Shown here: piece after piece, positions 6,861-37,850 of the stretch
Position numbering within the stretch: position 1 is the first letter of the stretch
Layout: every line of letters starts with the position of its first letter
Source of the DNA: Acetobacteraceae bacterium
GTDB lineage: Bacteria > Pseudomonadota > Alphaproteobacteria > Acetobacterales > Acetobacteraceae
Direction of reading: 5' to 3'
NCBI GenBank assembly: GCA_027487675.1
Contig: JAIYDD010000022.1
Location: forward strand, 1 to 50,783
Length of the DNA: 50,783 bases
Notes under the pieces: model-generated
Seen by the model: the letters and a program-made list of their open reading frames with translations, nothing else
What the model was told of the DNA's origin: nothing
Database searches by the model: none
Position numbers and translations under genes: made by a program

Positions 6861-6924
6861 CCCGTTCCTCCCGCCGATCTTGCCGGCTAGAGTAGCGCCA
6901 AGGACAGGAGGGGACAGGCCCAGG

Positions 6925-9994: not shown

Positions 9995-10023
9995 CGGCGG
10001 GGCGGCCTTGCGCCGCCCCGCCG
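9995..10023 (+). terminator. Hairpin between dctP and dctQ (attenuator)
   Basis: Perfect 12-bp inverted repeat, cggcggggcggc at 9995-10006 and gccgccccgccg at 10012-10023, with a 5-base loop. It begins 8 bases after the dctP stop. No T-run follows, so it more likely stabilises the dctP message or partly attenuates transcription, keeping the binding protein in excess over the membrane subunits, as is common in TRAP operons. Confidence 0.6.
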
Positions 10024-10063
10024 CTCCCGGCCCGGACGCCTGCCAACAGCAAGGATCGACCGC

Positions 10064-16333: not shown

Positions 16334-17263
16334 ATGCGCAAGACCGCCCACGAGGCCGCCGAGGCCGGCCCGCCCGACGTGGTGCGAACGGACGCGACGG
16401 AGCGCCTCGCCGGCCGTGCGCTGGCCTATCTGGAAGCCGGCTGCGCCGTCCACTTCCGCGGCCCCGCGGGCAGCGGCAAGACCCGCGCGGCACTCGACCT
16501 CGCCGAGCGCCTGGGCCGGCCGGTGCTGCTGCTGGTCGGCGATGCGAGCTTCGACACCTCGGCGCTGGTGGGCGGGGAGGCGGGCAGCCGCACGCGTCGC
16601 ATCGTCGACCGCTACATCACCAGCGTGATGAAGGTGGAGACGGAGACCGCGCCGGTCTGGCTCGACCGCGCGCTGACCATCGCCTGCGTCGAGGGCTGCA
16701 CGCTGGTCTATGACGAGTTCAACCGCGCGCCGGCCGCGGCCAACAACGTCCTGCTGACGGTGCTGGAGGAACGGCTGCTGGTGCTGCCGAAGGCGCCGAA
16801 GGAAGGCGCCATGCGCGTGCACCCCGAATTCCGCGCCATCTTCACCTCGAACCCCGAGGACCATGTCGGCACGCAGGACGCGCAGGACGCGCTGCTGGAC
16901 CGGATGGTGACCATCGACCTCGACGGCTTCGACCGCGAGACGGAAGTGGCGATCGCCGCCGCGAAGTCGGGCCTGGATGGCGCCTGCGCGGCGCGAATCG
17001 TCGACCTGGTGCGGGATTTCCGCCGCTCCCGCGAATGGCTGCGGCGGCCGACGCTGCGGGCTTCCGTGATGATCGCGCGGCTGACGCGCGCGCGGGGGCT
17101 TGCCGTCTCGGCGGCGGAGGAAGGCTTCGTGGAGCTGGTGCTCGACGTGCTGGGCAGCCGGCTCAAGCCCGGGCCGGGCGGCGGGCCGGATCCGCGCGCG
17201 CGGCAGATGCTGGTGCGGCTCGTGGAGCACTACTGCGGCCAGCCGGCGGAGCGCGCGGCGTGA
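16334..17263 (+). CDS. gvpN: Gas vesicle AAA+ ATPase GvpN (309 aa)
   Basis: MoxR-type AAA+ ATPase required for full-size gas vesicles in cyanobacteria and haloarchaea. Walker A is FRGPAGSGKT at about residues 41-50, Walker B is TLVYDEFNRAP around residue 130, and sensor-1 is FTSNPEDHVG. The stretch ALVGGEAGSRTRRIVDRYIT followed by VMKVETETAPVW is characteristic of GvpN specifically rather than of other MoxR proteins. Length is normal. It lies 6 bp after the preceding gene; its stop overlaps the GTG start of the next gene by 4 bases. Confidence 0.96.
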   Translation: MRKTAHEAAEAGPPDVVRTDATERLAGRALAYLEAGCAVHFRGPAGSGKTRAALDLAERLGRPVLLLVGDASFDTSALVGGEAGSRTRRIVDRYITSVMKVETETAPVWLDRALTIACVEGCTLVYDEFNRAPAAANNVLLTVLEERLLVLPKAPKEGAMRVHPEFRAIFTSNPEDHVGTQDAQDALLDRMVTIDLDGFDRETEVAIAAAKSGLDGACAARIVDLVRDFRRSREWLRRPTLRASVMIARLTRARGLAVSAAEEGFVELVLDVLGSRLKPGPGGGPDPRARQMLVRLVEHYCGQPAERAA

Positions 17264-17874: not shown

Positions 17875-18171
17875 ATGTCGCTGAACCATGCCGTCGGCGG
17901 CGCCTCGCTGGCCGACATCCTGGAACGCATTCTCGACAAGGGGATCGTGATCGCGGGCGACATCTCGGTCCACCTCGTCGGGGTGGAGCTGCTGACGATC
18001 CGGCTGCGCCTGGTCGTCGCCTCCGTCGACCGCGCGCTCGAGATGGGCATCCGCTGGTGGGAAGCGGATGCGGCGCTGACCGGGGAAGCCCGCCGGCTGG
18101 CCACCGAGAACGCCGCGCTGGCCGAGCGCGTCGCGCTGCTGGAACGGCGGCTGGCGGGGGGCGGCGCATGA
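17875..18171 (+). CDS. gvpJ: Gas vesicle minor structural protein GvpJ (98 aa)
   Basis: GvpA-family amphipathic protein. The core [20 protein letters not shown], then [18 protein letters not shown], is the conserved helix-strand-strand-helix of the shell protein. The following [13 protein letters not shown] is diagnostic for GvpJ rather than the main GvpA. A charged C-terminal helix ([16 protein letters not shown]) extends beyond the GvpA core. GvpJ is a minor component thought to help nucleate the vesicle tips. It starts 4 bases after gvpO and its stop overlaps the next ATG. Confidence 0.92.
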
Positions 18172-18701
18172 GCGGGCGGCGGCATCCGCCTTCCGTCGCC
18201 CGCGCGCTGTCCGAGCGCGCGCGCGCGGCCGAGGCGCCGGCGGCGGCGCCGGCCAACCTCGTGGACGGCATCCGTGGCCTGATGGACGGGCTGCAGAAGC
18301 TGGCGGAGACGGCCGGCGCGGCGCGCGGCGAGCTTGGCGGGCAGGACGGCCGGATCGTCTTCGGCTGCTCCATCCGCACCACCGATGGCGTGGTGCAGAG
18401 CTTCGGCACGCCGGCGCGCGCCGAAGCGCCTGATGCGCGCGAACCGCTGACCGACGTGATGGAGGAAGCCGACGCGATCCTGGTGGTGGCGGAGGTGCCG
18501 GGGCTGGATCCCGCGCAGCTCTCGCTCTCGCTCGAGGGCGGCGCGCTGCTGATCGAAGGCGGCGGGCGCGTGCGGTACCGGCGGCGCGTCGTGCTGCCGG
18601 CCGCGGTGGATGCGGCGCGGATGACGCAGGCCTGCCGGAACGGGATCCTCGAAGTGCGCCTGCCGCGCGCTTCGCCAGGCGGCACGGGGGACGGCGCATG
18701 A
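18168..18701 (+). CDS. gvpH: GvpH-like Hsp20/alpha-crystallin-domain protein (177 aa)
   Basis: The N-terminal ~95 residues contain a short helix ([20 protein letters not shown]) and [10 protein letters not shown], as in GvpH proteins. The C-terminal part (residues ~95-165) is an alpha-crystallin-like beta-sandwich: [45 protein letters not shown], and the closing [13 protein letters not shown], which corresponds to the N-G-x-L-x-x-x-x-P motif of Hsp20 proteins. GvpH acts as a small chaperone that binds hydrophobic Gvp proteins. It overlaps gvpJ and gvpF by 4 bases on each side. Confidence 0.88.
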
Positions 18702-19456
18702 GCGGGCTCTGGCTCTACGGCATCGGCGCCGAGGCGCCGGGCGGCGCGCCGCTCGGGGAAGGCGTCGGCGGTGCCGCCGTCGCGGCGCTGGCGCTCGGCG
18801 GTTTCGTCGCGCTGGTCTCCGCCGCACCCGCGGAACCGCCGGCGCCGACGCGGCGGCACATGCTGGCGCATACCGCGGTGCTGGAACGCGCGGCGGCGGC
18901 GGCGGACCTGCTGCCGGTGCGTTTCGGCACGGTGGCGCCGGCGCAATCGGCGCTGGAACGCTGCCTGGCGCATCACGAGGCCCAGCTGCGCGGCGCGCTG
19001 TCCGGCGTCGCCGGCTGCGTGGAGCTCGGCCTGCGCGCGGCCTGGCGCGACGACGTGGTGTACCGCGAGATCATGGCCGCCGAAGCCTCGCTGCGCGCGC
19101 TGCGCGACCGGCTGCAGCTGCGCCCGGCGGCCGAGACCTATGGCGCGCGGATCGAGCTGGGCCGGCGCGTGGAGGCGGCGGTGCAGGCGCGGCGGGCTTC
19201 CGATGCGGCCGCCATCGCAGCGGCGCTCGATCCGCTGGCGCAGCGCAGCGTCGCGCTGGCCACGGTCGATGACAGCCAGGTGCTGCACCGCGCCTTCCTG
19301 GTGCGGCGCGAGGAGGAGGCGCGCTTCGATGCCGCCGTCGCCGCGCTGGAAGCCGCGCAGGGCGAGCGGCTGGCCTTCCGCTACGTGGGGCCGGTGCCGC
19401 CCTTCAACTTCGTCTCGCTGCGCGCCGAATGGCTCGGCGCGCCGGCCCGGGGCTGA
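18698..19456 (+). CDS. gvpF: Gas vesicle protein GvpF (GvpF/L family) (252 aa)
   Basis: GvpF/GvpL family member. Hallmarks are the start LWLYGIGA, the central [20 protein letters not shown] leading to LLPVRFGTV (the most conserved GvpF/L element), VELGLRAAW, and the C-terminal [13 protein letters not shown] (family consensus G-P-W-P-P-Y-x-F). It has an N-terminal ferredoxin-like and a C-terminal alpha/beta domain. GvpF binds GvpA and is thought to keep it soluble or seed assembly. Placement just before gvpG matches the usual gvpF-gvpG order. This is one of three GvpF/L-type genes here. Confidence 0.93.
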
Positions 19457-19466
19457 GGGATCGCGC

Positions 19467-19715
19467 ATGGGGATGCTGTCCACCCTTCTGATGCTGCCCG
19501 TTGCGGGTCCTGCCGCCGGCATCGCCTGGATCGCCCGCAAGATCGGCGAGCATGCCGCGAGCGAGCTCGACGACCCGAACCGCATCCAGGCCGCGCTGCT
19601 GGCGCTCGAGAAGCGGCTGGAAGCCGGCGAGATCGGCGAGGAGGCCTTCGAGGCGGAGGAGGCTGCGCTGCTCGGCGAACTGGCCGAGATGCGCGCCAGG
19701 CGGGCCGGCGCGTGA
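19467..19715 (+). CDS. gvpG: Gas vesicle protein GvpG (82 aa)
   Basis: Short helical protein. The hydrophobic start [20 protein letters not shown] is followed by a charged helix with the GvpG pattern ([20 protein letters not shown]). Length is typical (about 80-90). In haloarchaea GvpG interacts with GvpF and GvpL and is essential in the accessory complex. ATG 19467 lies 10 bases after the gvpF stop; the stop overlaps the GTG of the AAA ATPase gene (GTGA). Confidence 0.9.
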
Positions 19716-21799
19716 CGGCGCTGCGCCTTCTCGTCGCCGGCGCGCGGGCCGAGGATGCGGGGCGCGGCATCGTGCGCCTCGATCCCGCGGACATGGCCGC
19801 GCTCGGCGTCGCGACGGGCGAGGTGGTGGCGATCCGCGGCGGCAGGCTCGCCCATGCGCGGGCCATGCCGGAGCGGCCCGAGGCCCGCGGCCAGGCCCGC
19901 ATCGCGCTGGATGGCGCGACGCGCGGCAATGCCGCCACCGCGATCGGGGAGGCGGTGGAGATCGCCGCCGCCGGCCGCGTGCCGCCCGCCAAGCGCGTGG
20001 TGCTGGCGGCCGAGGGCGGCCGGCCGGCGCTGGCCGCGCTCGACCGCGCGCTGGAAGGCGTGCCGCTGGCCGCCGGCGACGCGGTCCGCCTGACGCTGCC
20101 CGGCGGGCGGGAGGTGACGCTGCGCGTCGCGCGCCTCGACCCCGCCGGCCCCGCCATCCCGGACGCCGCGACGCGCATCGAGGTGGAAGGCGCGCCCGCG
20201 CCGAAGGTCGCGCCGCGGCCGCGGGAGGAAGTGCGCTACGAGGATCTCGGCGGCCTCTCGCGCGTGCTGCCGCGCATCCGCGAAGTGGTCGAACTGCCGC
20301 TGCGCCGGCGCGATGCCTTCGCGGCACTCGGCATCGCACCGCCCCGCGGCGTGCTGCTGGTGGGTCCGCCCGGCACCGGCAAGACGCTGATCGCCCGCGC
20401 GGTCGCCACCGAATCCAACGCCACCTTCATCGCCGTCAACGGGCCGGAGATCATGGACCGCTACTACGGCGCGTCCGAGGGCGCGCTGCGCGCGGTGTTC
20501 GAGCAGGCGCGCAAGGAAGCCCCGGCGATCGTCTTCATCGACGAGATCGACGCGATCGCGCCCCGCCGCGACGGCCTGTCGGGCGAGAAGCAGGTGGAAC
20601 GCCGCGTTGTGGCGCAGCTGCTGACGCTGATGGACGGGCTCGGCGGCCGCGGCGACGTGGTGGTGCTGGCGGCGACCAACATGGCCGATGCGCTGGACCC
20701 CGCGCTGCGCCGCCCCGGCCGCTTCGACCGCGAGATCCGCATCGATCCGCCGGACGCCCCTGGCCGGCGCGAGATCCTGGCGGTGCATTCGCGCGCGATG
20801 CCGCTGGCGCCCGATGTCGCGCTGGATGCGCTGGCCGAGCGCACGCCGGGCTTCGTCGGCGCGGACCTCGCCGCACTCTGCCGGGAAGCGGCGCTCGCCG
20901 CGCTGCGCCGCGCCGGCGTGCTGGACGGCGCGGCGCCGGCCGAGGCGCTTGCGGTCACGGCGGCCGACTTCGAGGCGGCGCTGCCCGGCATCGTCCCCTC
21001 CGCGCTGCGCGAGACGCATCTGGAGGTGCCCGCCACCGGCTGGTCCGCGGTCGCGGGGCTCGACACGCTGCGCGGCGAGTTGGAACGGGCCGTGCTCTGG
21101 CCGCTGAAGCGCCCCGAGGCCTTCGCGCGCATGGGGCTGCGCCCGCCACGCGGCGTGCTGCTGCACGGCGCGCCGGGCACCGGCAAGACGCTGCTGGCGC
21201 GCGCGCTGGCGGGCGAGGCGGGCGTGGCCTTCATCGCGGTGCGCGGGGCCGAGCTGCTCTCGCCCTGGCAGGGCACGTCGGAACGCGCCTTGCAGCGCAT
21301 CTTCGAACGCGCCCGCGCCGCCCGGCCCTGCCTGCTGTTCTTCGACGAGATGGACGCGATCGCGGGCCAGCGCGGCGGCGGCGACGGCGCGACGGTGGAG
21401 CGCATGGTCGCGACCTTCCTGACCGAGATGGACGGCATCGCCGATCCGCCGGGCCTTGTCGTGCTGGGCGCCACCAACCGCGCCGACCGCATCGACCCCG
21501 CGCTGCTGCGCCCCGGCCGCTTCGACCTGGTGGTGGAGATGCCGCGCCCCGACCAGGCCGGGCGGCGCGCCATCATCGGCCTGCATGCGGCGCGCATGCC
21601 GCTCGGGCCGGATGCCGATCTCGATGCGCTGGCCGCCGCGACCGCGGGTCTGGTCGGCGCCGACCTTGCGGGCCTCTGCCGCCGCGCCGCGCTGCTGGCG
21701 ATGGCGGAGGCCGATGCGCCGGATGCCGCGGTGGTCGGCATGCGGCACCTGCAGACAGCGCTGGCCCAGGAAGGGAAGGCACGCCGATGGACGATGTGA
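19712..21799 (+). CDS. CDC48/p97-type double-ring AAA ATPase within the gas vesicle operon (695 aa)
   Basis: Two tandem AAA modules after an N-terminal domain resembling the Cdc48 double-psi barrel (residues ~1-165). D1 has Walker A GPPGTGKT at 218-225, Walker [11 protein letters not shown], sensor ATN and the arginine-finger region [11 protein letters not shown]2 has Walker A GAPGTGKT at 486-493, Walker [11 protein letters not shown] and [14 protein letters not shown]. Both rings keep their catalytic glutamate. The C-terminus is shorter than in eukaryotic p97. Such ATPases pull apart or thread protein complexes. The gene overlaps gvpG (4 bp) and the J-domain gene (13 bp), so it belongs to the operon. 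A role in remodelling Gvp assemblies is inferred from position. Confidence 0.93.
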
Positions 21800-22776
21800 C
21801 GCTGCTCGGCATCGCGCCGGCGGCCGGGGCGGAAGCCCTGGCGCGCGCGATGGAAGCCCTGCCGGGACCGCCGGTCGCGGTGCATGTCGCGGGCAGCATC
21901 GCCGGGCTCGCGCAGCCGGCGGAACGCGCGCGGCGCGGGCTGCTGCTGGCGCGGGACCGTGCCGGGCTGCTCGCCTCCCTGGCGGCGCTGCAGCGGCGGC
22001 TGGAAGCGGCCTGCGTCGCGGGGCCCTTCCTGCCGGCCGATCCGGGCGCGGCGCGCCTGCCGGCGGCGGAACTGCCCGGGCTGCTTGCCGCCGCCGCCCC
22101 GCTGCTGGAGGAAGCGCTGGCCACGAAGGGCGCGCGCCATCAATGGGACGTGGTGATCCGCTGGAACGCCGAAGCCGTGGTCGCGCGCCACCGCGCGGAA
22201 CTCCAGGGCCTGGCCGGCGCCGCGCTGGCGCGCGCCATCCGCGCCACGCTGGTCGGCGAGCGCGAGATGCGCGCCGCCGCGCTGCGCGCCGCGCTGCGCG
22301 GCGCGGTGCTGGCGATCGCGGAGCCGCTGCCGGTCGAGGAGGACGCCGCGACGGGGCTCACCGTGCTGGTCCCCGCGGGCGGCGAGGCGGCGATCGAGGC
22401 CGCGCTCGGCACCCTTCCCGAAGAAGCGTCGCGCGACGCCGCGGCCGATCTGCGCGGCCCGCTGCCGCCGCTGGGCTTCGCGGCGCTGCGGCTGGCGGAG
22501 GTGCCGGCGGGCGCGGTGGAACGCGCCTGGTCGCTGCTCGGCCTGCCGGAAGCGGCGCCCGAGGCGCTGCCGGCCTCCGACCTCACGCGGCACTGGCGCG
22601 GGATCGCGGCGAAGCTGCATCCGGACCGCGCCGGCGCCGCGGCCGACCCGGCACGCTTCGCGGAGGCCCACGAAGCCTATCGCCTGCTGCGCAGCCTGGC
22701 GGGGGAAGCGCCGCTGGATCGCGTCCTGCTGGCCGCCCGCGCGCGGCGCCGCCTTGTCCTGCCGGAGGCCGCGTGA
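21787..22776 (+). CDS. GvpF/L-like protein fused to a C-terminal DnaJ J-domain (329 aa)
   Basis: Residues ~1-255 have the general GvpF/L layout: an N-terminal alpha/beta part, a variable middle, QWDVVIRWN in place of the usual V-E-x-x-x-x-x-W strand, and [15 protein letters not shown] near the end resembling the family's G-P-x-P-P-x-x-F motif. The similarity to gvpF is weaker than that of the other two copies. From about residue 262 the chain becomes a J-domain: [12 protein letters not shown], then [18 protein letters not shown] with an intact H-P-D tripeptide, then [16 protein letters not shown]. The J-domain would stimulate a DnaK-type ATPase and so bring Hsp70 to bound Gvp proteins. It overlaps the upstream ATPase by 13 bases and the downstream gene by TGATG. 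Confidence 0.8.
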
Positions 22777-23531
22777 TGACCGCCGATGCGCTCTACGCCT
22801 ATGCCGTGCTGCCCGCCGGCGCGGCGCTGCCCGCCGGCGCGCCGGCGATCCTGCCCGGCGCCACGCATGCGCTGGTCGAGGCCGGCGGGTGCGCGGCGCT
22901 GGTCAGCGCGGTGCCGCGCGGGCCGTTCGGCGCCGGGCCGGAAGGCCGCATGGCCGATCCCGAATGGGTGGCGGACCGCGCCCGCGCGCATCACGGCGCC
23001 ATCGCCAGCGCGGCGGCCTCCGGCCCGGTGCTGCCGCTGTCCTTCGGCGCGCTGTTCTCCGGCCCCGCGCCGCTCATCGCCTGGCTGGATGCCCGCGGGC
23101 CGCGGCTGCGCGCCGCGCTGGCCGACGTCGCCGGCTGCGCCGAATGGACCATCCGGGTGGAGGAGGACGCGGCCGGCCACGCCGCCTGGCTCGACCAGCA
23201 TGACGAGGCGCTGCGCGACCTGTCGCGCAAGGTGGAAGCCGCGCCGCAGGGCACCGCCTTCCTGCTCGGCCGCAGCCGCGCGAGGCGGCTGGAGGCGGCG
23301 CGCGCCGCGCGCCGGGCGGAGTTGTCGCGCGACCTGGCAGCCCGGCTCGCGGCGCATGCCAGCGCGCTGCCGGGCGAGCTGACGGCGCTGGTGCCGCAGG
23401 GCAATGCCGACCGGCTGCGCGACGACCTCGCGCGGATCGAGCGTGACCTGGCGGGCACCGGGCTCGCCGCGCGGCTCGCCGGGCCGTGGCCGCCCTACGC
23501 CTATGCGCGGGCGGCGCTGCGCGATGCGTGA
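22776..23531 (+). CDS. gvpL: Gas vesicle protein GvpL (GvpF/L family) (251 aa)
   Basis: Third GvpF/L-type gene. It begins ALYAYAVLPAG, contains ARAHHGAIASAAASGPVLPL followed by SFGALFS (family L-P-x-x-F-G-x-x-F), CAEWTIRVEED, FLLGRSRARRLEAAR, and ends with the conserved GPWPPYAYA. The position just before gvpS and gvpK matches the gvpL-gvpS-gvpK order of actinomycete clusters, hence the symbol; F versus L cannot be decided on sequence alone. The ATG at 22776 shares bases with the preceding stop, and the 3' end overlaps gvpS by 8 bases. Confidence 0.9.
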   Translation: MTADALYAYAVLPAGAALPAGAPAILPGATHALVEAGGCAALVSAVPRGPFGAGPEGRMADPEWVADRARAHHGAIASAAASGPVLPLSFGALFSGPAPLIAWLDARGPRLRAALADVAGCAEWTIRVEEDAAGHAAWLDQHDEALRDLSRKVEAAPQGTAFLLGRSRARRLEAARAARRAELSRDLAARLAAHASALPGELTALVPQGNADRLRDDLARIERDLAGTGLAARLAGPWPPYAYARAALRDA

Positions 23532-23742
23532 GCCCCTGCCGCTGCCACCGCAGCCGCCGCCGCAATCGCTGGCGGATGTGCTGGACCGGCTGCTCGACAC
23601 CGGCGTGGTGCTGGACGGGCAGGTGGTGATCTCGCTGGCCGGGGTGGACCTGGTGCATGTCGGGCTGCGGGCGCTGCTGGCCTCCGTGGACCGCGCGGCG
23701 GCGCTGGTGCAGCCCGCGCGCCTGCCGGGGGACGGCGCATGA
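23524..23742 (+). CDS. gvpS: GvpA-family minor protein, GvpS-like (72 aa)
   Basis: Small GvpA-family protein. After a Pro-rich start (LPLPPQPPPQ) comes the core SLADVLDRLLDTGVVLDGQV, then VISLAGVDLVHVGLRALLAS, the conserved shell fold. It lacks the W-W motif of GvpJ, and LVHVGLRALL resembles GvpS/GvpM-type minor proteins. Location between gvpL and gvpK supports GvpS. It overlaps gvpL by 8 bp and gvpK by 4 bp. Confidence 0.85.
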   Translation: MREPLPLPPQPPPQSLADVLDRLLDTGVVLDGQVVISLAGVDLVHVGLRALLASVDRAAALVQPARLPGDGA

Positions 23743-24029
23743 GCGCGACGGCGGACGCACCGGCGCCGGTGCGCATCGCGCTCGATCCCGCGGCGCTGGA
23801 ACGCGACCTGGCGCGGCTGGTGCTGACGCTGGTGGAACTGCTGCGCCGGGTGATGGAAGCGCAGGCCGTGCGGCGGCTGGACGCCGGCACGGTGACGGAG
23901 GCGGAGGCGGAGCGCCTCGGCCTCGGGCTGATCGCGCTGAAGGGCGCGGTGGCGGGGCTGTGCACGCGGCTCGGCATCGCGCCGGAAGACCTCAACCTCG
24001 ATCTCGGCCCGCTGGGCCGGCTGCTGTGA
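23739..24029 (+). CDS. gvpK: Gas vesicle protein GvpK (96 aa)
   Basis: GvpK family: LERDLARLVLTLVELLRRVM, then EAQAVRRLDAGTVTEAEAER, then LGLGLIALKGAVAGLCTRLG and the typical ending EDLNLDLGPLGRLL. Helical throughout. Function is structural or accessory and poorly defined, but the gene is present in nearly all gvp clusters. The ATG overlaps the gvpS stop; the next gene follows after 13 bases. Confidence 0.95.
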   Translation: MSATADAPAPVRIALDPAALERDLARLVLTLVELLRRVMEAQAVRRLDAGTVTEAEAERLGLGLIALKGAVAGLCTRLGIAPEDLNLDLGPLGRLL

Positions 24030-24042
24030 ACGGGGACTGACG

Positions 24043-26487
24043 ATGGGCGCTGCCTTGCGCGGGATCGGGCCGGTCAGGCTGCTGGCCGGGATGGCGGCGG
24101 CGGTGGCCGCGGCGTTGCTCGGGCTTTCGCTGCTGCGGCCGCCGGCCGTGCTGCCGGCCGCGGCGCTGCCGCCGTCGCCGACGCCGGCGCAGCTGGTGGC
24201 GGCGCTGACGGCCGGCGACCGCGCCGCGCTGGTCGAGGATCTGCGCGCCGTGGCGGGGCTGCTGCAGATGGCCGATCCGCAGGCGGTGCGCGTGGCGCGC
24301 GCGCGGCTGGAAGCCGTGGCGGCGGCCGAGGAACGCCGCGCCGGCGATGCGCCGCCGGCGCTGGTGCTGACGGGGCTCGCGACGCGGCTGGATGCGGCGA
24401 CGGGGGCGCTGGCCTCCCGCGCGCCGGTGGCGCCGGTCGATCCGGTGGCGCTGCTGGCGGCGGGGCTGGCGCTGCTGGCGGCGCTGGCGGCGCTGCTGGC
24501 GCGGCCGCGCGCGGCCAGCCTGCCGCCGGAACTCGCCGCCGCCGCGGCGGCGCTGGCGACGCTGCGCCAGGAAGGCGAGGCGGCCGGCCGCGCGCTCGCC
24601 GAGGCCGCGACCGCCGGCCGCCGCTTCGAGGAGCAGGCCAAGGGCGCCGAGACCCGCCTGGCCGGCGCGGCGCGGGAGGCGGAGGCGGTGCGGCTTGCCG
24701 CGGCGGAGCTCGCGGCGCTGCGGCCGGAAGCGGTGGCGGCCGCCGCGGCCTCCTTCGCCGCGGTGGCGGAGGATGGCGCGGCGCGGATCGATGCTGCCGC
24801 CGAGCGGCTGGCCGAGCAGGCGGCCGCGCCCTTGCTGGCGCTGGAGACGTGCGCGCAGGAGCTGCGCGAGGCGGCGGCCGGGATGCAGCCACGGCCGGAG
24901 GCGCTGGAACAGGCGCTCGGCGCCGCGCTGGCGGCGGCCGGCGTGCCGGAGCGGCTGGCGGCGCTGACGCCGGAGGCCATCGCGGCCGCGCTGCCGCCGG
25001 TGGATCCGCCGGACCTCAGCGACATCCGCGCGCGGCTGGCTGCGCTGACGCCCGAGGCGATCGGCAGCGCGCTGCCGCCGGTCGAGCTGCCGGAACTTGC
25101 CGACATCCGCGCGCGGCTCGACGCGCTGACGCCGGACGCCATCGCGGCCGCCCTGCCGCCGGCCGAGCGGCCCGACCTGTCCGACATCCGCGCGCGGCTC
25201 GCCGCACTGACGCCCGACGCCATCGCCGCCGCCCTGCCGCCCGCCGAGCGGCCCGACCTGTCCGACATCCGCGCGCGGCTCGACGCGCTGACGCCCGAGG
25301 CCATCGCGGCCGCCCTGCCCGCCGTCGAACCGCCGGACTTCGCCGACATCCGCGCGCGCCTCGAGGCTCTGACACCGGCGGCGGTGGCGGCCGCGACGGT
25401 CGCGGGCCTTGCCGCGCACCAGGCACCGCTGCTGGCCGAACTGCCGAAGCTGCGCGAGGCACTGGCCGCGTCCCGCACCGCGGAGGCCGAGGCGCTTGCC
25501 GCCCGGATCGAGGCCGCGATGCGCGACGCCGCCGCGACCCGCCCCGAGCCCGCCACGCGCCAGGCGGCCGAGGCGGTGGACGCCGCGCTGCAATGCCTGC
25601 GCACGGCCGCGGAGGACACCGCGGCGCGGCTGGACGCCGCGGCAACCCGCGTTTCGGCGCGCGCCGAGGCGCCGGCGGCGGCGCTCGACGCGGCGGCGAA
25701 GGACCTGCTCTCGGCGATGGCCGGGCTGGTGCCCGCGCAATCCAAGCTCGATGCGCTGTCCTCGGCGGCGGAAGCGGCGGTGGCGCGGGTGGAGGCGGCG
25801 GCACTGGCCGGCGCACAGGCGCTCGCCACCGGCCCGGCCCAGCTGCGCGACGCGGCGGAGGCGATCGCCGTGGCCTCGACCGATGCCGCCGAGCGGCTCG
25901 CCAGGCTGGCCGAGCAGGAGGTCTCCGGCGCGCTGCGCAGCGCCGCTGACCAGACCGGCGCCGTCGCGGCGCGCGCGACGGACACGCTGGCCGCCGCAGG
26001 CGAACGGTTCGGCGAGCAGGCGGAAGCCGCCGGGCAGCACCTCGCCCGCGGCTCCGCGGCGCTGGAGACGGCAGCCCGCAGCCTGGCCGAAGGCGCGGCG
26101 CGCGACCTGGCCCGCGCGGCGGCCGAGGCGAGCGAGAGCGCGATGGCCCTCCGCCAGGCGATCGCCGCGCAGGCCGAGCGCGCGCCGCCGCCGGATGCCT
26201 CCGCCGCGACCGCGGCGCTGCGCGCCATGGGCGATGCGCCGCCCGTCCTGGCCGCGGCGCTGCAGCGGCTGGGCAGCGTGGAAGGCGAGGTCAGCGCGCT
26301 GCAGCAGGAAGCCGAGCGGCTGGCGGAGAGCGCCGCGAACGGCGACGCCGCGGCCCTGCCCGATGCGGTGGGCGCGCACACGCCGGCGCTGCTCGGCAGC
26401 CTGGAGACGACGATCGGCCGGCTGCGCTCGGTGGCCACCGCGCTGGCGCTGGCCGGCGACAGCACGGCGACACGCCGCAGCGCCTGA
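24043..26487 (+). CDS. Membrane-anchored coiled-coil protein with five 27-residue repeats (814 aa), last gene of the gas vesicle operon
   Basis: No family recognised. Two hydrophobic segments (about residues 11-31 and 135-153) frame a ~100-residue loop; the rest is a long Ala/Glu-rich, probably coiled-coil region. Residues 304-438 consist of five 27-residue repeats with consensus R-L-x-A-L-T-P-x-A-I-A-A-A-L-P-P-x-x-x-P-D-L-x-D-I-R-A; a sixth, decayed copy starts at 439. The tail (450-814) has further Ala-rich helices without Trp or Tyr enrichment. GvpC, the outer brace of vesicles, also has tandem repeats, but of about 33 residues and without membrane segments, so this is not a standard GvpC. 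It starts 13 bases after gvpK and ends the operon. A membrane-vesicle tether or length-controlling scaffold is conceivable. Confidence 0.8.
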   Translation: MGAALRGIGPVRLLAGMAAAVAAALLGLSLLRPPAVLPAAALPPSPTPAQLVAALTAGDRAALVEDLRAVAGLLQMADPQAVRVARARLEAVAAAEERRAGDAPPALVLTGLATRLDAATGALASRAPVAPVDPVALLAAGLALLAALAALLARPRAASLPPELAAAAAALATLRQEGEAAGRALAEAATAGRRFEEQAKGAETRLAGAAREAEAVRLAAAELAALRPEAVAAAAASFAAVAEDGAARIDAAAERLAEQAAAPLLALETCAQELREAAAGMQPRPEALEQALGAALAAAGVPERLAALTPEAIAAALPPVDPPDLSDIRARLAALTPEAIGSALPPVELPELADIRARLDALTPDAIAAALPPAERPDLSDIRARLAALTPDAIAAALPPAERPDLSDIRARLDALTPEAIAAALPAVEPPDFADIRARLEALTPAAVAAATVAGLAAHQAPLLAELPKLREALAASRTAEAEALAARIEAAMRDAAATRPEPATRQAAEAVDAALQCLRTAAEDTAARLDAAATRVSARAEAPAAALDAAAKDLLSAMAGLVPAQSKLDALSSAAEAAVARVEAAALAGAQALATGPAQLRDAAEAIAVASTDAAERLARLAEQEVSGALRSAADQTGAVAARATDTLAAAGERFGEQAEAAGQHLARGSAALETAARSLAEGAARDLARAAAEASESAMALRQAIAAQAERAPPPDASAATAALRAMGDAPPVLAAALQRLGSVEGEVSALQQEAERLAESAANGDAAALPDAVGAHTPALLGSLETTIGRLRSVATALALAGDSTATRRSA
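24952..25356 (+). repeat. Five tandem 81-bp coding repeats
   Basis: In-frame repeats inside the 814-residue protein, each encoding 27 residues from R-L-x-A-L-T-P to D-I-R-A, with units at 24952, 25033, 25114, 25195 and 25276. Units 3 and 4 are nearly identical even at the DNA level (both with gccgagcggcccgacctgtc), indicating recent duplication. A degenerate sixth copy starts at 25357. Confidence 0.9.
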
Positions 26488-26530: not shown

Positions 26531-27862
26531 TCAGGCTGCCGCCGACCAGTCCGCGGCCTTGCCCATCTCGCCGCGCGGCAGGCTCTCGCCGACATCGAAG
26601 CGCACCGGGCGTTCAGGTGCGCTCAGCCGCGCCGCGCACCAGGCGGCCAGGCGCTGCGGCAGGCCCGCCGCGTCCACCCCCGCCGCCGGCACCACGAAGG
26701 CCTTCAGCCGCGGCTCGGCCAGCGTGGCGTCCAGCCGCACGACGGCCTCCGCCACCTCCGGGTGCCCCGCCAGCAGCGCCGCGATGCGGCCAGGGAAGAC
26801 GTTCACGCCGCCCACCTGCACCGCCTGGTCCTTGCGGCCCACCGGGCGCAGCCTTCCGTCGGGCAGCCATTGCACGCGGTCGGGCAGCGGCACCTCCGCG
26901 CCGGTCGCGGCCTCGACCAGCGACGCGCCCTCCCCGCCCCGGCCCGGGCGCCAGCGCGGCAGCAGGCGAAAGGAGGCGGCAGGGTCGTTGCGCCAGCCGA
27001 TGCCGGCGGTCTCGCTGCTGCCATAGACCTCCAGCACCTCGGCGAAGCCCATGTTGCGCAGCGCCCGCGCGGTGGCGACCGGCAGCGGCGCGGTGGAGGA
27101 GACCACGCGGATATCGGGCGCGACGGTCGCGGCATGCGCGGCCATCAGCGCGAGCCCGGTGGGGAAGCCCACCAGCAGGTCGCCCGGCCGCAGCAGCGCC
27201 GCGAGGCGCGCCGGCGTGGCGCCGCGGCGGGCCAGCACCGGCAGTCCGAAGGCGTGCGGCATCAACACGCCGAATAGGCAGCCATAGATGTGATGCGCCG
27301 GCACGGTCAGCACCACGCGGCGGCGGCCGGCGAAATGCCCGGCCCAGAAGGCGGCCTCGTCCAGCAGGGTCGCCATGGCGTGGCCGGCGATGCGCGGCGC
27401 GCCGGTGCTGCCGGAGGAGGCGAAGCAGAGCCCGCTGACACCGTGGCGCAGCGCGCCGGCGACGATGCCGGCCCAGGCATCCAGCCGGCGCTCCATCAGC
27501 AGCCAGCCCTCTGCGCCGGTCTCGTGCAGGCGGAACAGCCGGTCCACCGCCGCGGCGCAGGCGATGACGCCCAGGCTGTCGAGGCCGAGCCCGGCCTCGC
27601 CGAGCGGCATGTCCTCGGGCCAGGCCTCGGCCTCGGCGGGGTCGATGCGGCGGCCGGTGGCGGCGGCGATCTCCTGCGCCAGCAGCGGGCGCAGCATGCG
27701 GGCGATGGCGTCGAGCGGGAGGTCGAGCGGCAGGCCGGGGCGCAGGGGCTCGGCGGGTGGTTCGGGGATCGCCGGCGGCCGGCAATCCTCCGGGCCGGCG
27801 CCGCCCGATTGCTGGGGCGAAGGGCCGTGCGGCAGCCGGTCGGCCTGCGCGGGGATGCTCAT
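26531..27862 (-). CDS. pcl: p-Hydroxycinnamoyl (4-coumarate)-CoA ligase of the photoactive yellow protein type (443 aa)
   Basis: Adenylate-forming ligase expected to make p-coumaroyl-CoA, which then loads the chromophore on photoactive yellow protein. Motifs: phosphate-binding loop ASSGSTGAPR (residues ~148-157), VPAHHIYGCLFGVLMP, the adenylate motif EVYGSSETAGIGW, and the C-terminal hinge GRKDQAVQVGGVNVFPGRI. The chain is short compared with plant 4CL (about 550), as is usual for PYP-type ligases, because most of the N-terminal subdomain is missing. Residues ~50-115 contain EAGLGLDSLGVIACA, which resembles an acyl-carrier helix II, with S96 where a pantetheine serine would sit. Start at 27862 is chosen for its GGGAG ribosome site; 27922 is a longer alternative. 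Opposite strand to pyp, two genes away. Confidence 0.88.
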   Translation of the reverse strand: MSIPAQADRLPHGPSPQQSGGAGPEDCRPPAIPEPPAEPLRPGLPLDLPLDAIARMLRPLLAQEIAAATGRRIDPAEAEAWPEDMPLGEAGLGLDSLGVIACAAAVDRLFRLHETGAEGWLLMERRLDAWAGIVAGALRHGVSGLCFASSGSTGAPRIAGHAMATLLDEAAFWAGHFAGRRRVVLTVPAHHIYGCLFGVLMPHAFGLPVLARRGATPARLAALLRPGDLLVGFPTGLALMAAHAATVAPDIRVVSSTAPLPVATARALRNMGFAEVLEVYGSSETAGIGWRNDPAASFRLLPRWRPGRGGEGASLVEAATGAEVPLPDRVQWLPDGRLRPVGRKDQAVQVGGVNVFPGRIAALLAGHPEVAEAVVRLDATLAEPRLKAFVVPAAGVDAAGLPQRLAAWCAARLSAPERPVRFDVGESLPRGEMGKAADWSAAA

Positions 27863-28036
27863 GCGGGTGCTCCCGTGTGGGTCCTGCAGGCGGAGGGCCG
27901 GCGTGTCGTCGGGGCGCATCACCGGGCCATCGCGCTATGGACGGCGCAACGCATGAAGGTTCGGTGAACGCCGGGCTTTACGCCGGCTTCATCCGCGCGC
28001 GGCAGACTGCGGCCCAGGACGAGGCTGGAGAACGGC

Positions 28037-28534
28037 ATGCTGCCCTTCGCATTCGCCGCCGCGGCGCTGGCGGCCCCACCGCCACCGCCGGCGCGCCCGA
28101 CGCCGGCCGAGCCGCGGGAGGCCGGGCTGGTGACGCTTCAGGTCAGCGGCGGCAAGCCCCTGCGCCTGCGCGGCACGCTGGTGGCGGAGGCGAATTCCTG
28201 GGCGCCCGGCACGGCGGCCTGGCACGAGGTCTCCGCCTGGCGCTGCGAGGGGCGGGAGATCGCGGTGGCGGTGCGCACGCTGCTGAAGGCGGAAGGCTCG
28301 GCCGACGTGCACCGCGCGGAGATCTTCCCCAGCCTCGGCGAGGCGCAGGCCTGGCTGGAGGAATTCGACCCGATCGCCGACCTGCCCGTCGATCTCGATG
28401 CCTCGGACCGCCGCGTCAGCGCGGTCGACATCGCGCTGCGCGCGGCGGCGCTGCGCGGCCGGGCCGACGCGGTGGCGCGCCAGTGGCGCGCGCTGCTCGG
28501 CGAGGTGCTGCTGCGGCTCGACCGCGCGCCGTGA
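28037..28534 (+). CDS. PYP-neighbour paralog 1, uncharacterised (165 aa)
   Basis: Uncharacterised protein homologous to the gene at 29715: the two align without gaps from about residue 39 to 120. Shared features are (K/R)PL at 40-42, G-x-L at 46-48, WHEV at 62-65, a K-A-x-G turn, and D-(L/V)-P-x-D-L at about 115-120, followed by a helical tail. The N-terminus here (MLPFAFAAAALAAPPPPPAR) is Ala/Pro-rich and might be a weak signal sequence or a flexible arm. It starts 174 bp from the divergent pcl gene, with CTGGAG as ribosome site, and lies directly before pyp. Role unknown; a PYP partner is the obvious inference. Confidence 0.8.
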   Translation: MLPFAFAAAALAAPPPPPARPTPAEPREAGLVTLQVSGGKPLRLRGTLVAEANSWAPGTAAWHEVSAWRCEGREIAVAVRTLLKAEGSADVHRAEIFPSLGEAQAWLEEFDPIADLPVDLDASDRRVSAVDIALRAAALRGRADAVARQWRALLGEVLLRLDRAP

Positions 28535-28601
28535 CCGACCGCGCATCGATGCCCGACGGCGCCGCCATCCGCCAGACGAGGCGGACCACATCGACGGCCA
28601 T

Positions 28602-28631
28602 GGGCCGTGAGGCCCCTGCGGCTCACGACCC
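28602..28631 (+). promoter_or_regulatory. Hairpin in the leader of pyp
   Basis: gggccgtgag (28602-28611) pairs with ctcacgaccc (28622-28631), 10 bp with one mismatch and a 10-base loop. It lies in the 145-bp gap between paralog 1 and pyp, about 50 bases before the pyp start. It could be an attenuator or a message-processing site; no promoter motif was recognised. Confidence 0.45.
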
Positions 28632-28679
28632 CGCTTCGGCCGCCGCGACCCCAGCCCCAAGGACCGAAGGACACGCCCC

Positions 28680-29054
28680 ATGGAGATGATCAAGTTCGGT
28701 GCCGACCATGTCGACAACCTGGTCGCGCAGGATCCCACGCGGCTCGACCGGCTGCCCTTCGGCGCCATCCTGGTCGACCGCGTCGGCAAGGTGATGAAGT
28801 ACAACGCCTATGAGAGCGCGCTGGCCTCGCGCCCCGCGCATGAGGTGATCGGGAAGAACTTCTTCCACGATGTCGCGCCCTGCACCAAGGGCCACCAGTT
28901 CCAGGGCCGCTTCCAGCAGGGCGTGGCGCAGGGCAGCGTGAACACGATGTTCGAATATGCCTTCGACTACAAGATGCAGCCCGCCAAGGTGCGCGTGCAC
29001 ATGAAGTCGGCCTCGATGGACGAGGGCATCTGGATCTTCATCAAGCGCATCTGA
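28680..29054 (+). CDS. pyp: Photoactive yellow protein (124 aa)
   Basis: Small PAS-fold blue-light receptor that carries a p-coumaric acid thioester. The alignment with Halorhodospira PYP is full length with a one-residue N-terminal gap: IGKNFFHDVAPCTKG contains the chromophore cysteine C68 (Cys69), and VNTMFEYAFDYKMQPAKVRV matches the central sheet. The chromophore pocket keeps Y41 (Tyr42), E45 (Glu46) and R51 (Arg52). Position 49 is Ala where Halorhodospira has Thr50; from memory Rhodobacter sphaeroides PYP also has Ala there, which would tune colour and kinetics. All residues needed for photocycling are present. The ATG has GAAGG nine bases upstream. It sits inside the gas vesicle locus, between members of one unknown family. 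Tyrosine ammonia-lyase, which makes p-coumarate, is not in this window. Confidence 0.97.
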   Translation: MEMIKFGADHVDNLVAQDPTRLDRLPFGAILVDRVGKVMKYNAYESALASRPAHEVIGKNFFHDVAPCTKGHQFQGRFQQGVAQGSVNTMFEYAFDYKMQPAKVRVHMKSASMDEGIWIFIKRI

Positions 29055-29070
29055 GCGGACGGATCCGGGG

Positions 29071-29718
29071 ATGCGCGCCGGCACGACGGACGAGGCGGCG
29101 ACGATGGCCGGGACACCGGCGGAGGCCTTCGCGGCCACGCGGCTGCCCCGCCACGGCCAGCGGCCGCTGTGCTTCCAGGGGCGGCTGCTGATCTCGGCGG
29201 TGGTGGCGGAACCGGGCCTGCCCGTCGCGTCCGCCATCGCCCTGCATGAGGTGCTGGGCGGCGGCTTCGTGGCGGCGGTGCGGCACGAAATGCGCGCCCC
29301 GCTGCGTGCCGAGCCGCGCTGCTACGCGGCCGCGGCGGCGGCGGCGGACGGCGTGCTGGGCTTCCTGCATGCCCATGACCCGCTGCGCGACCTGCCGGCC
29401 GATGCGCTGCTGGCCGCGGCGGGCGGTGGCTTCGGCCCGGCGACCGACCCGGCCGGCGCGCCGGATGCCTGCGCGGCGGAGGATGACGCCGGGGCGGATG
29501 CCCCCGGCGCGCCCCTGATGTCGGAGGCCGAGTTGCTGGCGGCCGCGGCGCTTCTGGCGCCGCGCCTGCGCGCCGCCTGGCACGGGCTGCTGGCCGCCTG
29601 CTTCGGCCCGCCGGCGGCGGGCGGGACGGCCCGAGGCGAAGGGATGCGCGCCCAGGATGGCCGCGAGGAGGACGGCGCCCCAAGGCGCGAAGCGAGCTGC
29701 GAAGGAGAACCGCGATGA
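29071..29718 (+). CDS. PYP-neighbour paralog 2, diverged (215 aa)
   Basis: Third, most diverged member of the family at 28037 and 29715. Shared elements are QRPLCFQGRLL (residues ~30-40), IALHEV (the WHEV position), VAAVRHEM, and HDPLRDLPADAL. It is longer because of an acidic Ala/Asp-rich insert (~135-155) and a charged tail (~195-215) absent from the others. ATG 29071 starts 16 bases after the pyp stop; ATG 29104 is an alternative that would drop 11 residues. The TGA overlaps the ATG of paralog 3. Co-transcription with pyp is very likely. Function unknown. Confidence 0.72.
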   Translation: MRAGTTDEAATMAGTPAEAFAATRLPRHGQRPLCFQGRLLISAVVAEPGLPVASAIALHEVLGGGFVAAVRHEMRAPLRAEPRCYAAAAAAADGVLGFLHAHDPLRDLPADALLAAAGGGFGPATDPAGAPDACAAEDDAGADAPGAPLMSEAELLAAAALLAPRLRAAWHGLLAACFGPPAAGGTARGEGMRAQDGREEDGAPRREASCEGEPR

Positions 29719-30209
29719 ACGTGATCAACGTCTACGAGGCGATGGAGCGGCCGGATGCCGCCTCGATGGCGCCGCGCCACGCGGCGCGGCAGATGTCGGG
29801 CAATGTCTTCACGCTGCGCCGGTCCGGCGCGCGGCCGCTGAGCTTCTCGGGCCGGCTGCTCGGCCACCACAACGGCTACCGCGTCGGCACGCCGCTGTGG
29901 CACGAGGTGAACCTCTACCAGATGGACGATGGCCGCTACGTGGCGGACATCCGCGTCTTCACCAAGGCGCAGGGCGCGAAGGACCAGTTCCACGTCGCCC
30001 TGGTGGACAGCATGGAGGAGGCGCTGCAGGCCTTCGAGGGCCATGACGCGCGCGGCGACGTGCCGGCCGATCTCGCGATCGACGACGAGGCGATGTCGCC
30101 GGCGGAGCTGCTGGTGCAGGCGGCGACGCTGAAGGCGCGCGTCGCGGATTGCGTGGCGGCCTACCGCTCTGTCGTGGCGACCTTCCTGGCCGAGCTGAAC
30201 CGCGGCTGA
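29715..30209 (+). CDS. PYP-neighbour paralog 3, uncharacterised (164 aa)
   Basis: Same family as the gene at 28037, nearly equal length. [20 protein letters not shown] is followed by [19 protein letters not shown] and [17 protein letters not shown]; then [10 protein letters not shown] and a C-terminal helix ([20 protein letters not shown]). No signal peptide or membrane segment is seen, and the first 30 residues are polar. A soluble alpha/beta domain plus helix is likely. The ATG overlaps the preceding stop and has GGAG upstream (GAAGGAGAACCGCG). It is the last gene before the gvpA leader. Function unknown. Confidence 0.8.
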
Positions 30210-30294
30210 TCGCGGCTCGGGCGGCCGAAAATCGCCGATTCCGGCCGCGCGGGAACGCTTCCTCAATCCCCGGCCGCCAGGATCGCGGTGGCCG

Positions 30295-30383
30295 CGGGAA
30301 GGACCCCTCGGGACGACACCAGACGGGAAGACCCACCTTCGGGACCACCCCCCACCGGGACCACCCCAACCGGGACACCCCAC
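30295..30383 (+). repeat. Six tandem ~15-nt repeats upstream of gvpA
   Basis: Six consecutive units each begin with cggga, at 30295, 30309, 30324, 30340, 30356 and 30371, with lengths 14, 15, 16, 16, 15 and 13. Units 4 and 5 read cgggaccacccc. They end 61 bases before the gvpA start. Spacing of about one and a half helical turns is unlike simple codon repeats, and the segment is noncoding. An array of protein-binding sites or a leader minisatellite are the two readings. Confidence 0.8.
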
Positions 30384-30391
30384 CGGCGCCA

Positions 30392-30420
30392 CGGCCGACC
30401 CCGACAGGCAGGGGCGGCCG
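30392..30420 (+). promoter_or_regulatory. Leader hairpin and ribosome site of gvpA
   Basis: cggccgacccc (30392-30402) pairs with ggggcggccg (30411-30420) with a one-base bulge and an 8-base loop. It is followed by GGAG at 30435-30438, six bases before the gvpA ATG. A stable 5' hairpin just upstream of the ribosome site could protect the message of a structural protein needed in very high amounts. Confidence 0.55.
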
Positions 30421-30444
30421 GGAACCCCCAACACGGAGCTGCCG

Positions 30445-30663
30445 ATGACCATCAACAAGTCCCTCGCCTCTTCCTCGCTGGCCGAGGTCGTGGACCGCAT
30501 CCTGGACAAGGGCGTCGTGCTCGATGCCTTCGTCCGCGTCGCCCTGGTCGGCATCGAGCTGATCGCCATCGAGATCCGCGCGGTGGTGGCCTCGGTCGAG
30601 ACCTACCTGAAGTATGCCGAGGCGGTCGGGCTGACGACCGACCCGGCGGCCGCGTCCGCCTGA
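30445..30663 (+). CDS. gvpA: Major gas vesicle shell protein GvpA (72 aa)
   Basis: Main structural protein that forms the ribbed, water-excluding wall of gas vesicles. The sequence [20 protein letters not shown], then [20 protein letters not shown], then [17 protein letters not shown] is the canonical GvpA core, including the highly conserved I-L-D-K-G and [12 protein letters not shown] elements. Length is normal. It is the only true gvpA in the window and is separated from the accessory operon by pcl, pyp and the paralog family, with its own 235-bp leader. This suggests independent, strong expression. Confidence 0.97.
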
Positions 30664-30680: not shown

Positions 30681-31628
30681 ATGCCGGAAGGCGAAGGGCA
30701 GGCTGGCGGTCGCCTCGGCGGCCGCGCGGCGCTGCTGGCCTATCGGGCGGAGCGCGCGGCCGCCCGCATGCGGCTGCGCGAGGAGCTGCGCGAGGGCCGC
30801 GCGGCGCTGCGCGCGGCCCGACTGCCCGACCGGGCGGAGGCCGAGCCGCCGCCGCCCGTCGACACCGCGGCGCCGGCGGTGGCCGAGGAACCCTCGGTCT
30901 TCGCCGCGCTGCTCGGCGCCTCGCCGCCGGCGGCGCACCATGAGCCCCTGCCGGCGGCGGAGCGTGAGCCGGCGCCGGCGGCCGCGAAGCCGATCGAAGC
31001 GGCGCCGCCCGCCGCCCACGCCGAAGCCGAACCCGAACCCGAAGCCGAAGCCGAAGCCGAAGCCGAAGCCGAAGCCGAAATCACCTTGTCCGCGCCGGCC
31101 GCAAGCGCGCCCGCCGCCGACCCCGCCGCACCGGCCGCGCCGCCCGCGGCGCAGCTGGACGCGGCGGCCAAGGCGCCGCCCGACTTGGCGGTGGCCGCTG
31201 CACCCGAAGCCGACGCGCCCGCCGCAGCGCCGGCCGCCCCGCCGGCCGGGACGCCAGGCGAGCCCGACGCGGGCACGCAGCCGCCCGTCCCGCAGGGCGC
31301 GGCGCCCGCGCCCGATGCGTCGCCGGATGTCGTGCCGGTCGCGCCCGAAGCCCTGGCGCCAGCCGGCGCACCGGCGCCTGCCGCACACACGCCTGCCGCG
31401 CCGACGCCTCCTGCCCCCACGCCTGCGGTGGCCATGCCCACCGACCTTTCCGCCATCGCGGAGCTCGGCCCCGGCATGCGGCTCAGGCTGCGGCAGCTCG
31501 GCATCGCCAGCCTGGACGATCTGGCCGGCGCCGATGCGCGCGCGCTCCGCGAGGGGCTGGGCGAGATCAGCCGGCTGCTGCGCGTCGAGCGCTGGATCGA
31601 GGCCGCGCGGCACCTGCGCGCCGCCTGA
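30681..31628 (+). CDS. Low-complexity protein with C-terminal helix-hairpin-helix-like domain (315 aa)
   Basis: The N-terminal ~55 residues form a charged helix (YRAERAAARMRLREELREGR). The middle, about 50-255, is Pro/Ala/Glu-rich and probably disordered, including an (EA)n run from the hexanucleotide repeat at 31023. The last ~55 residues (LSAIAELGPGMRLRLRQLGI, then ASLDDLAGADARALREGLGE) resemble the helix-hairpin-helix fold found in 'flap endonuclease-like' and ribosomal-protein-associated domains (G-I-G-P-x-x-x-x-x-L-x-x-x-G-I-x-x-x-x-x-L-A). It follows gvpA by 17 bases, so it is co-transcribed. A linker or outer-surface protein joining vesicles to another structure is one possibility; no function is assigned. 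ATG 30681 is used; GTG 30678 is equivalent. Confidence 0.75.
   Translation: MPEGEGQAGGRLGGRAALLAYRAERAAARMRLREELREGRAALRAARLPDRAEAEPPPPVDTAAPAVAEEPSVFAALLGASPPAAHHEPLPAAEREPAPAAAKPIEAAPPAAHAEAEPEPEAEAEAEAEAEAEITLSAPAASAPAADPAAPAAPPAAQLDAAAKAPPDLAVAAAPEADAPAAAPAAPPAGTPGEPDAGTQPPVPQGAAPAPDASPDVVPVAPEALAPAGAPAPAAHTPAAPTPPAPTPAVAMPTDLSAIAELGPGMRLRLRQLGIASLDDLAGADARALREGLGEISRLLRVERWIEAARHLRAA
31023..31076 (+). repeat. Hexanucleotide microsatellite (gaagcc)n in coding sequence
   Basis: Nine consecutive 6-base units, gaagcc except for two gaaccc variants near the start. They encode alternating Glu-Ala or Glu-Pro. Slippage would change length by two residues without frameshift. Confidence 0.9.
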
Positions 31629-32746: not shown

Positions 32747-32760
32747 CAGCAATCCGATAA
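32728..32760 (+). promoter_or_regulatory. Probable LysR operator upstream of dabB
   Basis: ttatcgg at 32728-32734 and its inverted copy ccgataa at 32740-32746 form a 19-base dyad that fits the T-N11-A style of LysR sites. A further half-site ccgataa lies at 32754-32760, 14 bases from the second. It begins in the last codons of the LysR gene and ends 67 bases before dabB, right where an activator would bind. The AT-rich patch stands out from the surrounding GC-rich sequence. Confidence 0.65.
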
Positions 32761-32827
32761 ATTCGCTTCACGCATCCAAACGGCCATCGCAAAAGCGCCC
32801 CGCTTCCGCAACGGGGTCCGCATCTTC

Positions 32828-36566: not shown

Positions 36567-36629
36567 GGCGCGGGGCAAGACGGGCGCGGATCTGCCAGCA
36601 TCCGCGCCGCTGGCGACAAGGAGTGTCCG

Positions 36630-37848: not shown

Positions 37849-37850
37849 CG

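Follow-up and report, generated by a model that had tools for sequence, protein, structure and literature searches.

PYP genes inside a gas vesicle locus

A 50,783-nucleotide stretch of DNA from an Acetobacteraceae bacterium (GenBank assembly GCA_027487675.1, contig JAIYDD010000022.1, positions 1 to 50,783; hereafter the window) contains a gas vesicle (gvp) locus that also encodes photoactive yellow protein (PYP; gene pyp) and a PYP-type 4-coumarate--CoA ligase (gene pcl). Both genes lie between the gvp accessory operon and gvpA, at the coordinates given by the initial annotation, and each has the family it assigned as its best match (Table 1). The vesicle cluster is complete by its GvpA and accessory F/L, G, J, K and N proteins, N being recognised by its AAA_5 domain and by synteny; gvpN is the name that we take this AAA_5 gene (16334..17263) to merit. 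GvpO had no Pfam match among the scanned open reading frames (ORFs) of the window, a subset of them all.

The pyp product matches the TIGR02373 photo_yellow equivalog model over its full length at 166.7 bits, above the cut-off of 143.05, and in alignment it keeps Y41, E45, R51 and C68, which bears out the complete chromophore site first claimed for it. Tyr42, Glu46 and Cys69 of the Halorhodospira protein correspond to Y41, E45 and C68, all three in place. Its top matches in the PDB are PYP variants, and its closest relative, at 86% identity, comes from an Acetobacteraceae metagenome-assembled genome (MAG). The alignment also gives it Ser47 and Ala50, which the available passages of a survey of the same photoreceptor family (PMC12826048) list as consensus residues. 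Across the loop at positions 46-50, gvp-linked PYPs differ from the unlinked PYPs of their clade; spectral tuning through this loop was considered and set aside, as the difference is seen yet absorbance cannot be predicted from it. Most PYPs have Glu46, and in Roseococcus PYPs it is replaced by Gln. In other genomes of the class (L012, L013 and L014), the PYP domain ends long reading frames with ~450-500 residues ahead of it, apparently as part of fusion proteins.

No other family fits pcl nearly as well as TIGR02372 (4-coumarate--CoA ligase), which scores 315.5 bits over residues 71-456 and falls short of its curated cut-off of 334.7. Most of the 80 PYP loci described below have a pcl homologue close to pyp. 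The genome search for a tyrosine ammonia-lyase (TAL) that the initial annotation had proposed turned up two PF00221 aromatic lyase genes, one HutH-like with an SH motif and a second, atypical one with GASD in place of GASG; neither is a clear TAL. The cell probably imports the p-coumarate precursor or makes it with a lyase that has escaped recognition. In the available passages of the PYP survey, TAL occurs in only 7 instances among 113 pyp operons (PMC12826048). Judged by sequence, pyp and pcl probably constitute a PYP blue-light photoreceptor module placed inside the gas vesicle locus.

An unnamed protein family surrounds pyp

Three paralogous genes around pyp, here called X1, X2 and X3, had been overlooked in the initial annotation. 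Identity to X1 is 25% for X2 and 28% for X3, and AlphaFold2 models of X1 and X3 comprise five strands, a short helix and a long C-terminal helix. X2 begins 16 nt past the end of pyp and overlaps X3 by 4 nt, spacing which suggests that pyp-X2-X3 is one operon. The same order and close spacing of these three genes occur in the PYP loci L036, L038, L039 and L041 (loci are designated L and genomes G), and the order X1-pyp-X2-X3 recurs in several genera. Some loci are arranged otherwise. L037 has two tandem pyp genes (6220-6591 and 6906-7277) in a gvp locus where no X1-type gene was found; in G262 the order is pyp-pcl-gvpA, with one X ~2.6 kb before pyp; and L049 (10001-12481), from a Sphingomonadales MAG that may be incomplete, contains pyp, an X3-type gene and pcl, in a genome where a search gave no gvpA.

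X1-X3 of the window had no Pfam or NCBIfam match at E <= 0.1. Among 24 X members none exceeded a curated cut-off, and the best E values (0.0044 in Pfam, 0.019 in NCBIfam) came from one member each and look like chance. X has some weak likeness to EXLDI (TIGR04342), which is matched by the X of L121 at 20.1 bits and, among 24 further members, by one at E 0.019, but the L121 score lies below the cut-off of 32 and nine other X proteins tested gave no match, leaving kinship unproven. A Pur-alpha fold for X3 was rejected, the Foldseek matches reaching only E 0.07 to 0.3. A viral library yielded a single unnamed match to X3 (2.2e-4). PYP appears in 12 plasmid records and a gvpA-like gene in 46; no plasmid record matched X3.

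Table 1. Genes of the gas vesicle locus and its flank, with window coordinates
Feature	Position	Strand	Basis
MCP signalling and PilZ domain protein, beside gvp operon, candidate output	13722..15422	-	PF00015, PF07238
Unnamed 236 aa protein, precedes gvpN in several relatives	15617..16327	+	synteny; no Pfam family
gvpN-like AAA_5 ATPase, head of gvp operon	16334..17263	+	PF07728; homologue in gvp loci of relatives
gvpA/J-type Gas_vesicle protein	17875..18171	+	PF00741, 62 bits
gvpH-like HSP20 protein	18168..18701	+	PF00011 over cut-off; PF05455 GvpH 20.9 bits, cut-off 22
gvpL/F	18698..19456	+	PF06386, 208 bits
gvpG, start set at first ATG of scanned frame	19467..19715	+	PF05120
CDC48-type AAA ATPase	19712..21799	+	PF00004, PF02359
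GvpL/F-like, weak DnaJ-like C-terminus, start inferred	21787..22776 (scanned 21796-22776)	+	PF06386 over cut-off, DnaJ under cut-off
gvpL/F, further copy	22776..23531 (scanned 22773-23531)	+	PF06386, 135 bits
gvpJ/S-type Gas_vesicle protein	23524..23742	+	PF00741
gvpK	23739..24029	+	PF05121
814 aa Ala-rich protein, apparent N-terminal membrane segment and repeats (by eye)	24043..26487	+	no Pfam family
pcl, PYP-type 4-coumarate--CoA ligase, ORF opens upstream at 27922	26531..27862	-	TIGR02372
X1, first paralogue of unnamed family	28037..28534	+	alignment; tree group X1; AlphaFold2 pLDDT 90
pyp, photoactive yellow protein, 124 aa, single PAS domain	28680..29054	+	TIGR02373; Y41, E45, R51, C68
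X2, second paralogue	29071..29718	+	alignment; tree group
X3, third paralogue	29715..30209	+	alignment; tree group; AlphaFold2 pLDDT 86
gvpA, main gas vesicle shell protein	30445..30663	+	NF006874 121.2 bits, over cut-off; PF00741
Ala/Pro-rich protein, weak helix-hairpin-helix C-terminus	30768..31628	+	HHH_5 18.1 bits, cut-off 27

A homologue of the Ala/Pro-rich gene (30768..31628) also follows gvpA in several relatives, and the 814-residue Ala-rich protein after gvpK has partial matches close to X or gvp in several relatives. The gvp locus is followed immediately (31874-36986) by a LysR regulator gene, a DabB-like ORF recognised by eye, a DabA inorganic carbon transporter gene and a P-II-like gene. 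Farther on, 37827-39290 encodes a fusion of a protein kinase domain with a universal stress protein domain.

pyp and gvp are linked in all 11 surveyed genomes that have both

The linkage was surveyed from both sides. Starting from gvp, PF00741 searches covered three overlapping draws of 385 genomes of the class (5 with matches), 230 of the family (12) and 349 of the phylum (6, one under the cut-off), together with 9 genomes of the family of G262, among which only G262 itself has gvpA. Counting the window's own, 19 distinct genomes have an over-cut-off Gas_vesicle match; G916, with a match below the cut-off, was left out. The other 18 were searched for PYP and X. Six have PYP over the cut-off (G262, G432, G509, G592, G594 and G601), making 7 of 19 with the window's, and in all six pyp lies within ~3.5 kb of a gvpA-family gene. 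Under-cut-off TIGR02373 matches, generic PAS and PYP-like ones such as that of 87.5 bits in G462 and the fusion-type ones in G019, G151 and G348, were not counted.

Starting from PYP, we examined the best 80 of 240 loci from a scan of named genomes. Eight of them contain gvp genes (L036-L041, L045 and L076), a 26% HSP20-type match in L103 not being counted. Whole-genome searches for gvpA, made for 49 of the 80 loci, gave four positives (L036, L041, L045 and L076), all linked; L037-L040, outside that list, are the gvp genomes G592, G509, G594 and G432. Joining both surveys, 11 distinct genomes combine over-cut-off PYP with gvpA-family genes, and in 11 of 11 the two are linked within ~3.5 kb, which argues that the linkage is not due to chance; one of the 11 linked pyp genes (G432) contains a stop. 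The arrangement thus recurs in Acetobacteraceae, Sphingomonadales, Parvularculaceae and G262, answering the call for such a survey in the initial annotation. Its suspicion of a non-Rhodobacter lineage also held: G509 (Roseococcus suduntuyensis, L038) belongs to the same family as the window's genome, and the best PYP match is from the Acetobacteraceae MAG.

X follows this pattern, being carried by 11 of 11 genomes with gvp and PYP versus 3 of the 12 gvp genomes that lack an over-cut-off PYP. Nine of the 18 gvp genomes have it, namely the six that bear PYP and three with no PYP match (G580, G563 and G597). Among the 80 PYP loci it occurs in nine, the eight with gvp and L049. X was found in G000 and G262 of the class sample (385 genomes). 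Of 168 genomes drawn from the family, three have X (G000, G432 and G509), and all three have gvp and PYP, one PYP having a stop. Four genomes of the class sample with PYP and without gvp (G015, G164, G175 and G271) gave no X match when searched whole; in other such genomes X was sought in the fetched loci, up to 10 kb per side. A marginal X match in G224 (E 9.1e-4, 19.7 bits), a genome with neither a gvpA nor a PYP match, was not counted.

Phylogeny, apparent loss and decay of pyp

An 88-row PYP tree groups 10 of its 11 gvp-linked sequences, to which L037 contributes two, on the same side of the midpoint root (support 92/86). That side comprises 14 rows, with members from Acetobacteraceae, Sphingomonadales and Parvularculaceae, and includes Belnapia and Craurococcus, where pyp-pcl is present and no gvpA was found. 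Three changes of the gvp-linkage label are needed on the tree. An X tree of 41 rows resolves groups X1, X2 and X3 with mixed support, leaving seven divergent rows outside them; X3 joins with homologues from other orders at 96/91.

Two gvp lineages close to the window have no intact pyp. G580, of the window's genus, has kept X1-X2-X3-gvpA and has no PYP match anywhere in its genome, nor was pcl found in its fetched stretches. Its X genes are sister to those of the window (X1 97/92, X2 85/76, X3 99/93), which suggests that pyp was lost in G580, and retention of X1-X2-X3-gvpA without PYP marks PYP as an add-on. The second lineage, Roseococcus thiosulfatophilus (G432 = L040), has an in-frame stop at the chromophore-site tyrosine codon of pyp (10001-10372) and only two Gas_vesicle genes left versus three in relatives; neither a main-type gvpA nor pcl was found beside its pyp. 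R. suduntuyensis and G601 have kept pyp, pcl and all three Gas_vesicle genes, and the R. suduntuyensis locus (L038) also has X1-X3. R. thiosulfatophilus is one case of joint decay of pyp and gvp. The pyp of L141 has a stop at the same tyrosine codon as that of L040.

How PYP could act on gas vesicles

Blue light changes the conformation of PYPs. From the observed linkage we infer, tentatively and a little short of calling it probable, that PYP, perhaps together with X, lets blue light tune the production of vesicles, in line with the control of buoyancy or gvpA expression proposed in the initial annotation. In its favour are the intact PYP and ligase, the linkage seen from both survey directions, the tight packing of pyp-X2-X3, the distribution of X, L049 with its pyp and X3-clade gene, and the joint decay in R. 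thiosulfatophilus. The spacing of pyp, X2 and X3 predicts a single transcript and so co-expression of the three. Once changed by light, it would act through a neighbouring partner, raising or lowering vesicle formation, and the cell would thereby adjust its depth to the light. Candidate partners would be the X proteins first, X3 above all, and second a protein with methyl-accepting chemotaxis protein (MCP) signalling and PilZ domains encoded beside the gvp operon, a gene likewise absent from the initial annotation. PYP would be an accessory control; the vesicle locus also exists without it.

Several findings weigh against light control of this kind or against a part for X in it. No conserved motif or operator was seen upstream of gvpA. 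PYP over the cut-off is missing from 12 of the 19 gvp genomes, one of them (G580) in the window's genus, and 45 of the 49 PYP genomes searched, L049 among them, have no gvpA; moreover, the surveyed genomes include close relatives, and their counts are not independent. Three Acetobacteraceae, one of them in the window's genus, have X but no PYP, so X cannot serve PYP alone. Foldseek gave no solved structure in the PDB matching X3 or X1 at E <= 0.001. An approximately unbiased (AU) test did not reject trees with the positional X3 genes of G563 and G597 inside the X3 clade (p-AU 0.09 and 0.06); these genes may be fast X3 orthologues, which leaves a specific tie between X3 and PYP unsupported. Substitution rates do not supply one either. 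With five outgroups, X3 changes unique to the window versus those unique to G580 numbered 11:28, 11:22, 12:24, 13:23 and 16:19 (p 0.0095 to 0.74); the CDC48 control gave 31:59 (p 0.004), and X1 gave 8:21 with one of three outgroups. As the CDC48 control is also faster in G580, a strict linkage of X3 to PYP by rate was discarded. It is rather improbable that X, and especially X3, is the missing partner relaying the blue-light signal of PYP to vesicle formation, with X1 and X2 serving the vesicle and X3 binding PYP in a module common to Acetobacteraceae, Sphingomonadales and Parvularculaceae.

Other explanations were weighed against light control of vesicles. It is possible, if somewhat unlikely, that X1-X3 serve gas vesicles as ordinary accessory proteins and are unconnected to PYP, a view compatible with either alternative below. 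Their retention in the three gvp genomes without PYP is what it would expect, but 9 of the 12 gvp genomes without over-cut-off PYP also lack X, and in L049 X stands beside pyp in a genome where no gvpA was found (the MAG being possibly incomplete). Rather unlikely is a lifestyle island without regulation, in which pyp-pcl and gvp travel together as traits suited to near-surface water while PYP acts otherwise. The frequent separation of PYP and gvpA noted above fits an island (four known gvp loci lie outside the list of 49), as does G580, where pyp is missing while X1-X2-X3-gvpA stay. Yet pyp sits within the recurring, tightly spaced X1-pyp-X2-X3 order in several genera, which a loose island would have shuffled more.

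Improbable in our view is the last alternative, that PYP signals through the MCP-PilZ protein to a chemosensory or cyclic di-GMP (c-di-GMP) output in motility or biofilm formation, the gvp neighbourhood being secondary or a second output. In its favour, homologues of the window protein (~46% identity over 350 residues) are encoded directly beside pcl-pyp in L042-L044, from two Belnapia genomes with identical PYPs and Craurococcus, all without a gvpA match; the window gene itself adjoins the gvp operon; L041 has an MCP with no PilZ match near its PYP-gvp locus; and the available passages of PMC12826048 name MCP and c-di-GMP proteins among candidate partners of PYP. Set against this, the window gene lies ~13 kb from pyp, the fetched stretches of L036-L040, L045, L049 and L076, which include short ones, yielded no MCP-PilZ gene, and MCPs are numerous: among the 109 loci searched, 12 others had weaker MCP matches, though the PilZ part was matched only in L042-L044.

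Relation to known systems and significance

PYP beside gas vesicle genes is not itself new. Kyndt et al. reportedly described it in 2004 in Rhodobacter capsulatus. A later paper places the PYP gene near the gvp cluster in Loktanella sp. SE-62 and R. capsulatus, citing Kyndt et al. 2004 (PMC3646047), in agreement with the Rhodobacter precedent named in the initial annotation. These loci resemble the window in the closeness of pyp to the gvp cluster; they belong to another lineage, however, and the available text of PMC3646047 mentions neither the X genes and their order nor an MCP-PilZ neighbour. A table of PYP species in PMC6273459 shares with our proposal a role for PYP in buoyancy, listing species of Burkholderia, Haliangium, Curvibacter and other genera close to a 'Gas vesicles' / 'cell buoyancy' entry (the assignment of species to that entry is uncertain), but the part available contains no Acetobacteraceae name. 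Buoyancy is also mentioned in the accessible part of PMC3594816. The PYP family survey, with 984 homologues and 113 predicted operons, returned none of the terms gas ves-, gvp, buoyan-, Acetobacter- or Roseococcus in its main text (PMC12826048). In an open-access library we found no paper on PYP in Acetobacteraceae or on gvpA or gas vesicles in Acetobacteraceae, and the passages of one paper found for gas vesicles and Roseococcus held nothing bearing on the PYP-gvp locus. Relative to these published passages, the Acetobacteraceae lineage and the X family with its order within the locus are new; PYP next to gvp was already in print.

How PYP passes on its signal is called an open gap in the available passages of PMC12826048, whose Table 1 lists the biological function of the Rhodobacter PYPs as unknown. 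The loci described here offer a small set of co-inherited candidate genes and add X as an unnamed family in gas vesicle loci. With such candidates, with strains of one genus that have or lack pyp, and with a decaying locus, the idea that blue light may control buoyancy becomes directly testable.

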